Assembly (NCBI GenBank): GCA_018058545.1
Contig: JAGOZU010000019.1
Span: 1 to 43,733 of the forward strand
Direction of reading: 5' to 3'
DNA: 43,733 nucleotides
Origin: Promineifilum sp.
Lineage (GTDB): Bacteria; Chloroflexota; Anaerolineae; Promineifilales; Promineifilaceae
The translations under genes and the position numbers were made by a program. Position 1 is the stretch's first letter, and each line of letters begins with the position of its first letter. Below are positions 32,267 to 38,732 of this stretch, piece after piece. Below the pieces are notes generated by a model, which did no database searches, was not told the origin of the DNA, and worked only from the letters and a program-made list of their open reading frames with translations.

Positions 32267-33592
32267 ATGAGATCACGCCTTTCTGTTTTGTTCGCTCTGG
32301 CCGCGCTGGCGGCCCTGCTTCTGACCGGATGTAGCCTCGGTGACATGGCATCGTCTGCGTTGCCGATCGTCGGCAATGTGGCCACTACTGTCGCCGGCAC
32401 CGTCGCCGACACCGTCGGGCAGCAATTACCCACCATCGCCGCCTCGGCCGGGGTCATCACCGACAAGGCCGGGGCCGCCTTGGAGACCGTTTCCCAGATT
32501 AACCCCACCGCCGAGCCTGAGGCCGTGGAGCAAGTCCCGCCGGTCATCGAGCCGGTCCCCGTGCCGATCACCAGCGACGAGCAGACGCTCATCGACCTGT
32601 ACAAGCGCGTCAATCCCGGCGTCGTCACCATCTACATGACCTCCGGCAGCGGCTCGGGCTTCATCATCGACGCCGAAGGTTACATCGTCACCAACAACCA
32701 CGTCATCGCCGAAGGTGGCCCCATCACCGTTTACTTCCACGACGGCGACGTGCGCACGGCCGAACTGGTGGGCACCGATCCCCAGGGCGACATCGCCCTG
32801 CTGAAGGTCGACGCCGCGGAAGGCGACCTGATCGCCCTGCCGCTGGGCGATTCCAACACGCTGCAGGTGGGCCAATCGGTCATCGCCATCGGTGCGCCGT
32901 TCAACCTGCCAAACACCCTGACCACGGGCATCATCAGCGGCCTCAACCGCCAGATGCCGGTCGAGGAGCTGGGCCTGACCACCAACTACCAGACGCCCGA
33001 CGTCATCCAGACCGACGCGGCCATCAACCCCGGCAACTCGGGCGGCCCGCTGCTGACCATGTCGGGCGAGGTCGTAGGCGTCAACACGGCCATCGAATCG
33101 CCGGTGCGGGCCAATAGCGGCGTGGGCTTCGCCGTGCCCTCCAACGTGGTCAAGGTCATCATCAGCCAGTTGCGCGAGAGCGGCAGCGTCAGCTATCCGT
33201 GGCTGGGCATCGCCGGCGGCACGCTGACCCCCGACGCGGCCGAAGAGCTGGGCTTGTCCCGCAACACCCGCGGCGTGCTGATCAGCGAAGTGACCGAGGG
33301 CGGCCCGGCGGCGTTGGCCGGATTGCGCGGCCTCGACCCGGACACCATGACCGGAGCCGACATCATCATCGGCATCGATGACCTGGTTGTGCGCGAGTTC
33401 GACGACCTGCTCGGCTACATCGTGCAGCAGACGCAAGTGGGCCAGTCGGTCACACTGACCATTCTGCGCGACGGCCAGGAGACGACCCTGCCCTTGACCC
33501 TGGGCCAGCGGCCGGCCACGCTGAACACGCAGCCGGGACTTGAAGAGGGCCAGCAGATACCCCAGATGCCGGGGTTCCCGCAGCAGCCGTAG
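32267..33592 (+). CDS. htrA: HtrA/DegP-like trypsin-type protease with PDZ domain, lipoprotein
   Basis: A 441-residue envelope protease. The signal ends in LLLTGC (lipidated Cys at 22). A Ala/Thr/Pro-rich linker reaches to about residue 105. The trypsin-like domain has an intact triad: His145 (TNNHVI), Asp175 (GDIALLKV) and Ser258 (NPGNSGGP). A PDZ domain (about 305-420) begins YPWLGIAGG and contains ADIIIGIDDLVV. HtrA proteins degrade or refold damaged exported proteins. The ATG has GGAG 5 nt upstream. A strong terminator follows 80 bp downstream, making this a single-gene transcript. Confidence 0.93.
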   Translation: MRSRLSVLFALAALAALLLTGCSLGDMASSALPIVGNVATTVAGTVADTVGQQLPTIAASAGVITDKAGAALETVSQINPTAEPEAVEQVPPVIEPVPVPITSDEQTLIDLYKRVNPGVVTIYMTSGSGSGFIIDAEGYIVTNNHVIAEGGPITVYFHDGDVRTAELVGTDPQGDIALLKVDAAEGDLIALPLGDSNTLQVGQSVIAIGAPFNLPNTLTTGIISGLNRQMPVEELGLTTNYQTPDVIQTDAAINPGNSGGPLLTMSGEVVGVNTAIESPVRANSGVGFAVPSNVVKVIISQLRESGSVSYPWLGIAGGTLTPDAAEELGLSRNTRGVLISEVTEGGPAALAGLRGLDPDTMTGADIIIGIDDLVVREFDDLLGYIVQQTQVGQSVTLTILRDGQETTLPLTLGQRPATLNTQPGLEEGQQIPQMPGFPQQP

Positions 33593-33724: not shown

Positions 33725-34486
33725 TCAGATTTCAGGGAGAAAATCCGTCAGATCAAAATTTTGGCTGTTGGCCTGGACGAGACGAGACCAATCAATGGCT
33801 CCGGCGACGTCGCAGAAATCACGGATGAACTGACCGGTGAGCCTGTTTTCCAGCGCGGCACGTCCCATGCCGAACCGCTCGTTATGTTCCTTGGCCTGAT
33901 AGCCAATCGGCTCAATGATCTCCGTATAGAGGTCGGGGTTCTCACTGATGAGATACCAGAAATTCTGCCCGACGACCTTCAGGTAACCGGCTTTGTGGAA
34001 AGTCGTTCGTGTCTTCCCATAGCAGATACCCAGGACAGGTTGGACGTTGAGGGCGGCGCGCGATTGTCGCACGCGAGTCACGCCGTCGCGCAAATCCTGA
34101 GCCAGACGCCGGTGCTGCGAGCTATTGCCCCAATTCGGTCCCGACTTGATGGAGACGATGTAGTGAGTGTAACGGCTGATGAATTCCAGATCGACGCCCT
34201 GCGCGGCCGACTTGTGCCCGCCGCAAGTTTGCTCAGCCACAAAGACGGCCAACCCTTCCAGAAAGTCGCCGAACAGCTTTTCCTCCGATGACGATAGAAA
34301 GGCGTCGAGCAGACCGGCGATCAAATCTCCGGCCGATGTGATGTTCTTGGCTCGGAACAAATAGGGGTTTTTCTTCAGGAGCGCCAGCAAGATGAGCCGC
34401 TCAAGAGACGCCAGCTTGCGACGATGAAAATCGTCGATATTGTCGTTGACATATAACCGCACGGCGTCGAAATCAAGCGGTTTCAT
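33725..34486 (-). CDS. PmeII-family type II restriction endonuclease
   Basis: A 253-residue protein with clear resemblance to the PmeII family of type II restriction endonucleases. Characteristic pieces are FDAVRLYVNDNIDDFH, LLKKNPYLFRAKNI, LLDAFLSSSEEKLFGDFLEGLAVFVAEQTCGGHKSAAQGVDLEF, and the probable PD-(D/E)XK core VDLEF...HYIVSIKSGPNWGNSSQ, where the acidic residue and the lysine of IKSGPNWG are intact. NVQPVLGICYGKTRTTF and KVVGQNFWYLISENPDLY follow. The frame has no disruption. Its ATG overlaps the 3' end of the methyltransferase gene by 14 bp. Its sequence looks less GC-rich than neighbouring genes, suggesting horizontal origin. Recognition sequence not known to me. Confidence 0.88.
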   Translation of the reverse strand: MKPLDFDAVRLYVNDNIDDFHRRKLASLERLILLALLKKNPYLFRAKNITSAGDLIAGLLDAFLSSSEEKLFGDFLEGLAVFVAEQTCGGHKSAAQGVDLEFISRYTHYIVSIKSGPNWGNSSQHRRLAQDLRDGVTRVRQSRAALNVQPVLGICYGKTRTTFHKAGYLKVVGQNFWYLISENPDLYTEIIEPIGYQAKEHNERFGMGRAALENRLTGQFIRDFCDVAGAIDWSRLVQANSQNFDLTDFLPEI

Positions 34487-35342
34487 CTTTATCGTTTGTT
34501 AAATATGTCTCGCGACTTTCCAGAAGTTGAAGCTGCATCCGGCCGATCCTCTGGTTGGCTAATTCGATGAACTCAGGACCGATGTCAATCCCCAGATAAT
34601 GACGGCCGAGCAATCGGGCCGCCTGCGCCGTCGTCCCCGACCCGACAAAAGGATCGATAACCAGGTCGCCCTCGACCGTGAAGAGCTTGATGAACCATGA
34701 AGGCAATTCCAGTGGGAAGGCTGCGCTATGGTTGCGATTGGCGCACTCGGTCGACATGTGGATCACATTGGTGGGATAGACCATATCCCGCCCGACCCAG
34801 TTGGACACATTCTTGCCGAACCCGCTGTTTACCTTTGATTCGTCGCGCACCTTGTCCGTCGCGCTCAAATTCGACAGGCGCGTCCTGGCCCAATCCCCAA
34901 CAGGAACCATGACGGCATCCTGGTACATATGAAATTGCCGGCGCTTGTTAAACTGGATAAGTCGTTCCCATGAATCCCGGAAACGGTTGGGCCATTTGCC
35001 CGGGTAGGAGTTCTTCTTGTGCCACATGAACTCCTCGGTCCACAGCCAGCCCTGTTGCCTCATGTTGAGGATAAGGTCGAGGACATAGGTATGACGCTCG
35101 CCGTTGACGACGCGCTCCTTGATGTTGAGCACAAACGTGCCCGTCGGCTTCAGAACGCGCAGAAATTGCTCTGTCTTGGGCAGAAACCAGTCGACATATT
35201 CGTCCGGGGTAACGCCGCCATAGGTGTGGCGGCGCTGGTCGGCGTAGGGGGGTGAGGTGAAAATTTAATCGACCGAATCGTCGGGCAGTTCCGCCAGAAC
35301 GGTTTCGCAATCACCCAGGACAATTTGGTCGACGTAATCCAT
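34473..35342 (-). pseudogene. SPPY-type DNA methyltransferase interrupted by an in-frame stop at codon 26
   Basis: This is the modification partner of the restriction enzyme. Reading from an ATG at 35342 with a GAGAGG ribosome site 6 nt upstream gives MDYVDQIVLGDCETVLAELP, the usual start of a beta-type methyltransferase, but codon 26 (35265-35267) is TAA. Two codons later the catalytic motif TSPPY follows in the same frame, and the frame continues open to the end, including ERLIQFNKRRQF, STECANRNHSAAFP and the SAM-binding DPFVGSGTTAQAARLLGRHYLGIDI. A restart at an internal GTG (35132) would omit SPPY and so lack catalysis. One base change (TTA or CTA for TAA would encode Leu, giving the expected VDLIFTSPPY) would restore it. 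Total intact length would be 289 residues. Confidence 0.85.
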
Positions 35343-35411: not shown

Positions 35412-38400
35412 TTACTCGCCTAATACCACCAGATACGGCTCGCCGGCGTTTCCGGCCACATCATAGCCGATGACACAAATACGCGCGGGGAGTTGCTCCG
35501 CCGGCAAATTAAAGGGGATGCGACGATAGGGCTTGTAGCTGTCGAGGTCGGCGCAATCGACCTCCTCGGCCGGGCCGAACAGCACTTCGAATTGGGACAA
35601 CTCCGGCGGGGCGAAAATCGGCTCGAAGCGAAAGCCGCCAAACCCGTCGGAAGCGAAGTGTATCACCGGCGTCAGCGCCGGCGGGGTCATGTCGATCTCC
35701 GCCCGGGCGACCGTCGGCCGATCTACCGGTTGCCATGTGCCGTCCACCGTCGGGTTGGCCCCGGCCAGGACGCACAGCAGGCTGCTGCCCTCCTCCGGCG
35801 GCAGCGGATCGACGATGGTGCCGGCCTCGGCCAGGGCCACGACCGGACCGTAGCCGTCCTCGCTGCGGCAATCCACGTCGCCGGCGCGGCCGGTCTTGTA
35901 GCGATAGTAGGGCAGATCACCCGACACGGTCGTGTTCCAGGCAGCGGGCATGTTCACCCCCTCGATCGACACCGTGGCCTGAATCGGTTGCGGCGGGAAG
36001 CCCGACAGCAGCAACTGGCGGCCGTCATCCAGCGGGCAACCCGCGGCCGACAGATCGAAACGGCCGTCCGCCCCAAAGCAGGCCCCCAGCCCGGCCACCG
36101 GCGTGGCGTAGCTGGTGTTGACGTTCATCGTCACGCCATCCACGCCCGGCCGTGCCTCACAGGGATTACCCAGCGCACAGGCCGTCAACCCCCCGATGTT
36201 GGTGGTATTAATCAGGGCGATGATAGCCGGATCGTCGCCGGCAAAGACGGGCGAGCCGGAACTGCCACCGTAGATGTCCCGGCAGGCGTTGACGACGGCG
36301 TCGTCGAAATGCCAGATGAACTCAAACAGGTTGGCGCGGCCGCCCGCCAGGCAGCGTTCCTCGCGCAGATAAGCCAGCGAGGGCGGCACCCCGGTGACCG
36401 GAACTCCCGTCACGCGCATCGTGAACGGCGTGTCCGGCAACTGGTCGGCCAGCGCCAGGGGCTGGATGCCTTGCGCGATCAGCTCCCCGGCCGTGGCCTC
36501 CAGCTCCAGCACAGCCACATCGCGCCCCTTCATGGTGCTGTAGGCTACGCGGCTGACGGGTACCTTGACCTGCGCGGCGGCCGTGTCGACGAAATAGTTA
36601 AACACGGCCGACCAGCCGTCGGCCGGCTGGTCGACGAAAACCCGGTTGGCGTCCCATTCCTGGGCGCAATGGCCGTTGGTGATCAGGTAGGCCGGAGCGT
36701 CGGGCGAGCCGGACGGGTTGATGAAGGAGCCGGTGCAGGAGGACGCCGCCATCAGACGGCCGACGCCGGTCAACCCGGCATGGTCGCCGCCCGCGTTCTC
36801 CAGCAGGGTGGAGGACGCGCCGACGATCTGCGGCGGCCGCACCAGCTCCACATCGCCCAGAAACAGATTGCCGCTGGAGGTCTGATCGAAAACGAGGGCG
36901 ATCTCGGCGATGTCAGTCAGATCGACGGCCGAGGCCTCGTCCAGCGGCAGACGGATGGTGGTCATGGGCACGAGGCCGGTGAATACCATGCCGAAGAACT
37001 CATCCTCGCGCGCCATACCGCCCGGGAAAGCCAGGGCTGGTTCGTCCTCCCGCGTCGTCAGCACGGCCACGCCGCCCGCGCCGTCGGTCAGCCGCACGCT
37101 GAAGCGCTGCGTGGCTCCGGCGGTGTTCAGTTCCGACAGCGGGTCGACAGCCGCGCGCAGGCTCAACGTCGTGAAGCGGCTCAGGTCACGCTCGCCCTCG
37201 GGCAGTTCAAAGCGCAACTCGCCGCCCGGTTCCGTCCAGGTGACGATAGCCATGGCCGGGTTGCCGGGCATGGTGATGGTCACCCGGCGGCACGGTTCGG
37301 AGCCAGGGCGCTCGGACGGAGTGATGAAACCCTCCTCACAATAATGGAGCGTGAGGCCCTCGGCGACGGTCGGCCCGCCCAGAGAGTTGGTCGTCAGTTC
37401 GTCCTCGTCCGACGGCGCCAGCAGCGGCTGGCGGTCAGCGGCCGGAGACAGGCTGGATACGATAGCGGGCCGACCCAGGACCGCCGACGGTGCCGGCTCG
37501 ATGACATCCAGCCCCATCCGGGCATTGGCAGCCAGGCGCGCCTCGGGATCGGGACTGAAGAGGGTCGTCAAAAAGCTGGCGGCGTAGTCCACCAGAAAAC
37601 GGCGCTGGTCTTCGGGATCCAGCAACGTTTCACAATCGGGCCGGTCGGGATTGCCCATTAAATCGGGACCGAGGATCGTGTTAAAGCCGTTGTGGTTGGC
37701 TCCGGCCAGGATGACGCTGGTCGCGGGGGCGTTATCCGGCTTGTGGCGGGCCGCCTCATAGAATATCTGACCGTCGCCGCCGACGACGTCGCCGTCACAG
37801 CTGGAGATGACGACCGCCAGCGGCACGCTGGGCGGATCGGCACCAAACACAGCCACCGCCGGGGCGATGAGCAGCAAGCCGCGCACCGGCCCATAGCCGC
37901 GATTGGCGTAGCTGTAGGGCGAATCGAGACCGGGGCCGAAATCGGAGTTGCTGGTTAGCCAGCTGGCCGCCTCGCCGCCGCGTGAATGGCCGAAGAAGAC
38001 CAGGCGCTGCATGTCGGCCACGCCGTCCAGATCGACGCCGAAGTTATTCGTTCCGCCCGCGGCCGCCTCGGCCAAAGCGGACAGATGCAAGTCGACGATC
38101 TGGGCGATGCGCTCCCCGCCGATGGGTTCGCCGAAGCCAAACGTGTTCTCGGCATTGATATTGATCGACAGAGCGACATAGCCGCGCCCGGCCAGCTCAC
38201 GCACCAGATATTCGAAGCCCATGAAGTTGGGCTGCTCCAGTTCGGGATCGCACGGCCAGCGGTCGACGCCCATGTCATCGACCGGGCAACCGGGGTGCGT
38301 GCCGTGGAGGATAAGTACGACCGGGTACGGCCCTTCTTGCGGGTAGTTGGCGTCGGGGACGGCCATGACGCCGTTGAGGCGCACGGGCATCTCGCGGAAG

Positions 38401-38732
38401 TTGGTTCCCCCGGCGAAGCGCTCCTGAATGACAATAGCCTCGCCCAGGTCATAGGCGACGCCGGCGGGCAGTTGCGGCGGGGCGGCCGTGGCCTCCGGCT
38501 CGGCCGGGGGTGCGGCCGTCGGCTCGGCCGTGGCGGCTTCGGCCGTAGGCGGTTCGGCCGTCGGCGGAACGTCGGTTGCGGCTTCTTCGGCCGTGGGGGC
38601 GATCTCAACCGGCGGCACGGTGGCCACGACGGCCTCCGTCGGCAACACAGTAGGCCCCGGTGTCTGGCAGGCGACCAGCAGGACAAGCAGCAGACCCGGA
38701 ATCAATAGCCGGGATAGTCGGCAACAGGACAT
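35412..38732 (-). CDS. Lipoprotein fusing an alpha/beta hydrolase to a trypsin-like protease
   Basis: A 1106-residue predicted lipoprotein. The signal ends in LLVAC (Cys about 22); a Pro/Thr/Ala/Glu linker reaches about residue 90. Residues about 95-400 are an alpha/beta hydrolase with VVLILHGTHPG (oxyanion region) and nucleophile motif GHSRGGE (Ser250), ANHNGF probably giving the His. A beta-rich region follows (about 430-640). From about 660 to 870 a trypsin-like domain carries His688 (ITNGHC), Asp738 (GRDVAVLE) and Ser827 (GGSSGSPVF). A beta-rich C-terminus closes the protein. Start ATG 38732 has GAGGAG upstream. Two separate serine-hydrolase triads in one surface protein are unusual. Substrates unknown; it may degrade polymers or esters outside the cell. 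Confidence 0.85.
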   Translation of the reverse strand: MSCCRLSRLLIPGLLLVLLVACQTPGPTVLPTEAVVATVPPVEIAPTAEEAATDVPPTAEPPTAEAATAEPTAAPPAEPEATAAPPQLPAGVAYDLGEAIVIQERFAGGTNFREMPVRLNGVMAVPDANYPQEGPYPVVLILHGTHPGCPVDDMGVDRWPCDPELEQPNFMGFEYLVRELAGRGYVALSININAENTFGFGEPIGGERIAQIVDLHLSALAEAAAGGTNNFGVDLDGVADMQRLVFFGHSRGGEAASWLTSNSDFGPGLDSPYSYANRGYGPVRGLLLIAPAVAVFGADPPSVPLAVVISSCDGDVVGGDGQIFYEAARHKPDNAPATSVILAGANHNGFNTILGPDLMGNPDRPDCETLLDPEDQRRFLVDYAASFLTTLFSPDPEARLAANARMGLDVIEPAPSAVLGRPAIVSSLSPAADRQPLLAPSDEDELTTNSLGGPTVAEGLTLHYCEEGFITPSERPGSEPCRRVTITMPGNPAMAIVTWTEPGGELRFELPEGERDLSRFTTLSLRAAVDPLSELNTAGATQRFSVRLTDGAGGVAVLTTREDEPALAFPGGMAREDEFFGMVFTGLVPMTTIRLPLDEASAVDLTDIAEIALVFDQTSSGNLFLGDVELVRPPQIVGASSTLLENAGGDHAGLTGVGRLMAASSCTGSFINPSGSPDAPAYLITNGHCAQEWDANRVFVDQPADGWSAVFNYFVDTAAAQVKVPVSRVAYSTMKGRDVAVLELEATAGELIAQGIQPLALADQLPDTPFTMRVTGVPVTGVPPSLAYLREERCLAGGRANLFEFIWHFDDAVVNACRDIYGGSSGSPVFAGDDPAIIALINTTNIGGLTACALGNPCEARPGVDGVTMNVNTSYATPVAGLGACFGADGRFDLSAAGCPLDDGRQLLLSGFPPQPIQATVSIEGVNMPAAWNTTVSGDLPYYRYKTGRAGDVDCRSEDGYGPVVALAEAGTIVDPLPPEEGSSLLCVLAGANPTVDGTWQPVDRPTVARAEIDMTPPALTPVIHFASDGFGGFRFEPIFAPPELSQFEVLFGPAEEVDCADLDSYKPYRRIPFNLPAEQLPARICVIGYDVAGNAGEPYLVVLGE

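Follow-up and report, generated by a model that had tools for sequence, protein, structure and literature searches.

What a bacterium would do with a single lipoprotein that carries both an alpha/beta-hydrolase and a trypsin-like protease is the question raised by a gene in a contig of a Promineifilum sp. (43,733 nucleotides, referred to here as the window). The first-pass annotation had described one lipoprotein with two apparently intact catalytic triads, and this description was borne out by a single open frame, a lipobox, and conserved residues in both modules (Table 1). A frame error, which had been considered as a way in which two genes could have been joined, was checked for as well: the frame is unbroken over 1106 amino acids, and an error or a chimera is unlikely. 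An AGGAGA stretch is found upstream of the ATG in the window sequence. Read from the sequence, the hydrophobic segment LLVLLVAC22 followed by the linker matches the lipobox of a bacterial lipoprotein, and the fused protein would be located at the cell surface. The putative Ig-like assignment of the carboxyl-terminal part goes back to a Big_13 match that one relative gives below the threshold, and a search against NCBIfam gave no match above the cut-off. The first-pass annotation knew of no characterized enzyme with both activities, and searches of solved structures found none carrying both modules. The gene is a novel architecture built of known parts. Elsewhere in the window, an otherwise complete DNA methylase gene (N6_N4_Mtase; 34473-35342, minus strand, 289 codons) contains an in-frame TAA at codon 26, just ahead of its TSPPY motif.

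Table 1. Features of the gene for the fused lipoprotein, with positions in the window.
Feature	Position	Strand	Basis
Whole gene, fused lipoprotein of 1106 aa	35412-38732 (ATG at 38732; stop at 35412-35414)	minus	Single uninterrupted frame
Residues 1-22, signal peptide with its lipobox (L19 V20 A21 C22)	38667..38732	minus	Motif reading from the sequence
Pro/Ala/Thr/Glu-rich linker, residues 23-88	38469..38666	minus	Composition; pLDDT about 30
Alpha/beta-hydrolase domain, about residues 90-420; Ser250, Asp315 (or Asp313), His347	37473..38465	minus	9xg1 match, conserved residues, model pLDDT mostly high, fold matches
Beta-sandwich domain, about residues 421-638	36819..37472	minus	Inside the 9xg1 match; predicted structure
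Fusion junction, residues 639-645	36798..36818	minus	Directly past the point at which standalone relatives naturally end
Trypsin-like protease domain, about residues 660-899; His688, Asp738, Ser825; Cys666 and Cys689 flank the His	36036..36755	minus	Pfam, HtrA alignment, Streptomyces matches
Carboxyl-terminal part, residues 900-1106; two probable Ig-like repeats, cysteines conserved	35415..36035	minus	Alignment; Ig-like nature inferred

When solved structures were searched with the full-length sequence, a single match was returned: 9xg1 ("Protein-asparaginase"), at E = 5e-34 and covering residues 38-645 of the query. With a 13-row profile, this entry was matched at 1e-60 over both the alpha/beta-hydrolase and the beta-sandwich, while the best match to any other structure was at 2.9e-5; chlorophyllase, PET hydrolases, and cutinases covered part of the first domain only. 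The relation to 9xg1 extends over the full length of both domains (residues ~90-638), the same predicted active-site residues are found at all positions of the triad, and the motifs GHSRGG, CDGDV, and ANHNxFN are common to both proteins in the alignment. Like the window protein, 9xg1 (793 aa) has an alpha/beta-hydrolase followed by a beta-sandwich. Its match stops near residue 680, however, and the search showed no protease in it, whereas in the window protein, a lipoprotein, the hydrolase is followed by a protease. By sequence, the N-terminal module is a member of the same family as 9xg1, rather than a generic alpha/beta-hydrolase. The putative deamidase label of this module is taken from a single PDB molecule name, at low identity to 9xg1, and a literature search found no paper on protein-asparaginase or on a hydrolase-protease fusion.

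The reading of Ser250 in GHSRGGE as an intact hydrolase nucleophile stands: Ser250, Asp313, Asp315, and His347 were all kept in 29/29 aligned hydrolase modules, a set without same-gene duplicates and without fragments or linker-only matches (L012, L015-L019, L021, L024-L028, and L058 being examples of these two kinds). In the predicted structure, in which pLDDT is mostly high for residues 90-635, Ser250 lies between a strand and a helix, the Asp pair follows a strand ending at residue 310, and His347 follows a strand ending at residue 342. This order of strands and catalytic residues is the usual one for the alpha/beta-hydrolase fold.

The second module was recognized by Pfam as Trypsin_2 (PF13365; residues 666-834, 32.6 bits against a cut-off of 27.6). 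An HtrA-like protease with a PDZ domain, encoded at 32267-33592 on the plus strand of the window, served as a yardstick for its triad. In a profile alignment of the two proteins, NGHC fell on NNHV, GRDVAVLEL on GDIALLKV, and GGSSGSP on PGNSGGP, placing His688, Asp738, and Ser825 in register with the HtrA-like triad. Of the residues that the first-pass annotation had proposed (His688, Asp738, and Ser827), the first two therefore stand, while Ser827 aligns with the second glycine; the predicted nucleophile is Ser825, because GGSSGSP aligns on PGNSGGP. It is also Ser825, not Ser827, that is replaced by Ala in two relatives that have lost the His as well.

Further relatives were found among 22 plasmid records matching the window protein, which included Streptomyces serine proteases aligned to residues 661-901 at about 30% identity. 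What trypsin-like proteases of this type (e.g., WP_331746392.1) share is the catalytic domain, in which NGHC, the NPCEV region, and, at the place of the sequence around Ser825, GTSGSP are seen, but WP_331746392.1 is only 285 residues long, and lacks both the hydrolase and the carboxyl-terminal repeats. Asp819, six residues ahead of Ser825, is invariant in all five protease modules. Since this residue falls on what we take to be position 189 by chymotrypsin numbering, the specificity site of trypsin, our guess is that the protease would cut after Lys or Arg. Sequence searches of solved structures yielded no convincing relative of the protease module (one spurious match at E = 1.5, and none in a second search), and a search with the Streptomyces protease gave one spurious match (E = 0.66). 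The alignment behind the full-length model consisted of the window protein and hydrolase relatives, with nothing drawn from protease parts; modeled alone from its single sequence, the protease module reached a pLDDT of 35.

Most hydrolase relatives consist of the hydrolase only. In a genome of the same genus (G001), the gene at the same locus, with which the window shares neighboring nucleosidase, S41-protease, and PPK2 genes, stops at the position that corresponds to residue 638, where the protease begins in the window protein. The protease module itself was found in 3/52 genomes of the family, in 4/396 genomes of a class sample (one of them a weak 64-residue match), and in 1/400 genomes of a phylum sample, this one being the window itself. 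The 64-residue match (G208; E = 6e-4) was not counted as a protease module, leaving five clear genes: besides that of the window, G064 has two, and G013 and G279 have one each. A strong hydrolase match (best E of 1e-89 or better) was present in 32/396 genomes of the class sample, as counted by eye from the rows, and among these the protease module is confined to the window genome. In G005, where a hydrolase gene (L029, or G005:C451) breaks off at query residue 616 because the contig stops there, the protease module was looked for and not found. Among viral contigs, stretches matching a pattern were found, none of which was confirmed as a relative. As the same-genus counterpart ends at the junction and the protease module is rare, the window gene is a fusion.

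A domain search for other proteins of this architecture, proposed in the first-pass annotation, brought up one more hydrolase-then-protease fusion, and the trees indicate that it was made independently. In a member of the same family (G064, contig 96), a 1221-aa frame encodes the hydrolase followed by the protease, behind an extra N-terminal domain. Both fusions are joined between the end of the beta-sandwich and an STLLE stretch. In an 18-row hydrolase tree, the G064 fusion groups with the standalone hydrolases L105 and L107 (100/100 support), far from the hydrolase of the window. A single inherited fusion was rejected: a clade of the window and the G064 fusion received a p-AU of 4e-71 in this tree, where close relatives break up the long branches, and 0.0085 in a 12-row tree. 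A first, 30-row tree had placed the G064 fusion beside the standalone copy of the same genome, an effect of long branches; the 18-row tree moved it to L105/L107. The hydrolase-protease fusion thus appears to have arisen independently in the two lineages. The protease tree, with six rows, joins the two G064 copies (88/89), and the place of the window among the others is not fixed in it. The second G064 copy, on contig 37, is a separate gene about 8 kb from a separate hydrolase gene; META-domain, SH3, and baeRF genes occupy the interval.

The catalytic His, Asp, and Ser of the protease are all kept in the module of the window and in both of those in G064, whereas in G013 and G279 His688 is replaced by Arg and Ser825 by Ala. 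No hydrolase module was found in G279, and G013 contains only a weak partial match (E = 2.4e-4). All three intact protease modules are fused to, or near, a hydrolase module, while the two decayed ones lie in genomes without a clear one. With five genes in total, this pattern is only suggestive of a tie between an intact protease and the presence of the hydrolase.

Several other arrangements were seen among relatives of the hydrolase. In G019 (L075:2860-6177), the same module lies at the carboxyl-terminal end of a longer chain, also one open frame of 1106 residues, but here the partner lies in front and belongs to the beta-lactamase family (PF00144) rather than to the proteases. L097 and L098 (G180 and G076) carry about 230 residues behind the module, with two YscW domain matches in L097, and three frames of 939-967 aa (G110:C65, G160:C501, and G179:C766) contain two hydrolase matches each, apparently by tandem duplication. 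A second group (L076, L077, and similar proteins from G005, G014, G061, and others) has a related hydrolase domain within about 725-850 residues and hydrophobic, probably membrane-spanning N-terminal segments; the Cys pair is missing from it, while Ser, Asp, and His are kept. In L009 (G028:C35), the module is spread over several frames, reflecting either a decayed copy or assembly errors.

We propose that the fused gene encodes a surface-anchored enzyme with two activities for the breakdown of proteins, which it would both deamidate and cut, a reading to which we give an even chance. Most likely, the N-terminal module would hydrolyze the amide groups of protein-bound asparagine with the Ser250/Asp/His347 triad, accompanied by the beta-sandwich, and the carboxyl-terminal protease (His688/Asp738/Ser825) with its repeats would cut the same polypeptides. 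By adding charge and loosening its protein substrates, deamidation would help cleavage, and it would also free ammonia. We take two independent fusions, a linked gene pair, and catalytic decay where the hydrolase is missing as signs that the two modules, with their putative activities, act jointly; protein would be the simplest joint substrate, because 9xg1 is the nearest solved relative of the hydrolase. The mixed polymer previously put forward as a substrate is not supported, as this relative, nearest by a wide margin, is named protein-asparaginase, and both halves plausibly act on protein.

The main rival is that the hydrolase is an esterase of the cutinase, PET-hydrolase, or chlorophyllase type, acting on lipids or polyesters, with the protease beside it working on mixed cell debris. 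Structural comparison of the hydrolase model does give matches to these folds (Z 22-25), led by chlorophyllase (Z = 24.7, rmsd 2.7 over 256 residues) and followed by PETases and cutinases at Z about 23, and there is weak profile similarity to them (E = 3e-5 and above). 9xg1 was not among the 50 matches listed in either structure search, so that the ranking of folds could not weigh it. Its E-value, however, is better by some 55 orders of magnitude, and its match takes in the second domain, whereas the esterases share the fold of the first domain at low sequence similarity over only part of it. The window protein also stays below the Pfam cut-offs: PETase (PF12740) was not among the families listed for it, and Chlorophyllase (PF07224) scored 10.3 and 12.4 bits against 26. 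We take these matches as a sign of shared fold rather than shared function, and give the esterase explanation a lesser, but real, probability.

The other explanations concern the protease and the join. A self-processing secreted enzyme, whose protease trims the hydrolase or itself or frees either from the membrane, would fit the long flexible linker past the lipobox and the presence of both modules on one chain, but standalone hydrolases do without a protease, which only one of the 32 class-sample genomes with a strong hydrolase has; we consider it rather improbable. Processing of the hydrolase, which the first-pass annotation had suggested, is thus not favored as the main role of the protease, whereas release from the membrane may be a side role. 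It is likewise doubtful that one of the modules has no catalytic activity or serves for binding alone, with the protease for instance as a binding scaffold: the loss of His688 and Ser825 in two relatives shows that such decay occurs, but all three residues are kept in the window copy and both copies of G064. Finally, an assembly chimera or frame error could be imagined in a draft of 185 contigs in which the window's downstream genes have no match at the same-genus locus (G001). Yet GC3 stays even from end to end of the gene and across the junction (about residue 640), the join is in frame and exactly at a domain boundary, and the same fusion is present in another genome, making this highly improbable.

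Two further points bear on the proposed reading of a deamidating and cutting enzyme. Chemistry can change within the alpha/beta-hydrolases, and the partners of the hydrolase vary elsewhere (beta-lactamase family, YscW repeats), so that its link to protein breakdown is not exclusive. As other members carry other partners, the roles of the whole hydrolase family may extend beyond the digestion of proteins.

To our knowledge, enzymes able to deamidate asparagine within intact proteins are few, and it is unclear what they do in nature. If a relative of such an enzyme has repeatedly been fused to a protease, this would suggest that their role is the digestion of proteins. Tentatively, the window protein could be the first enzyme to unite a protein-asparagine deamidase and an endoprotease in one surface protein, a union that would have arisen at least twice, in which the deamidase makes the substrate ready for cleavage by the protease and the protease module, when unpaired, decays into a pseudoprotease. 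The fusion makes this role testable with one gene, and would offer a ready two-in-one enzyme for protein processing.
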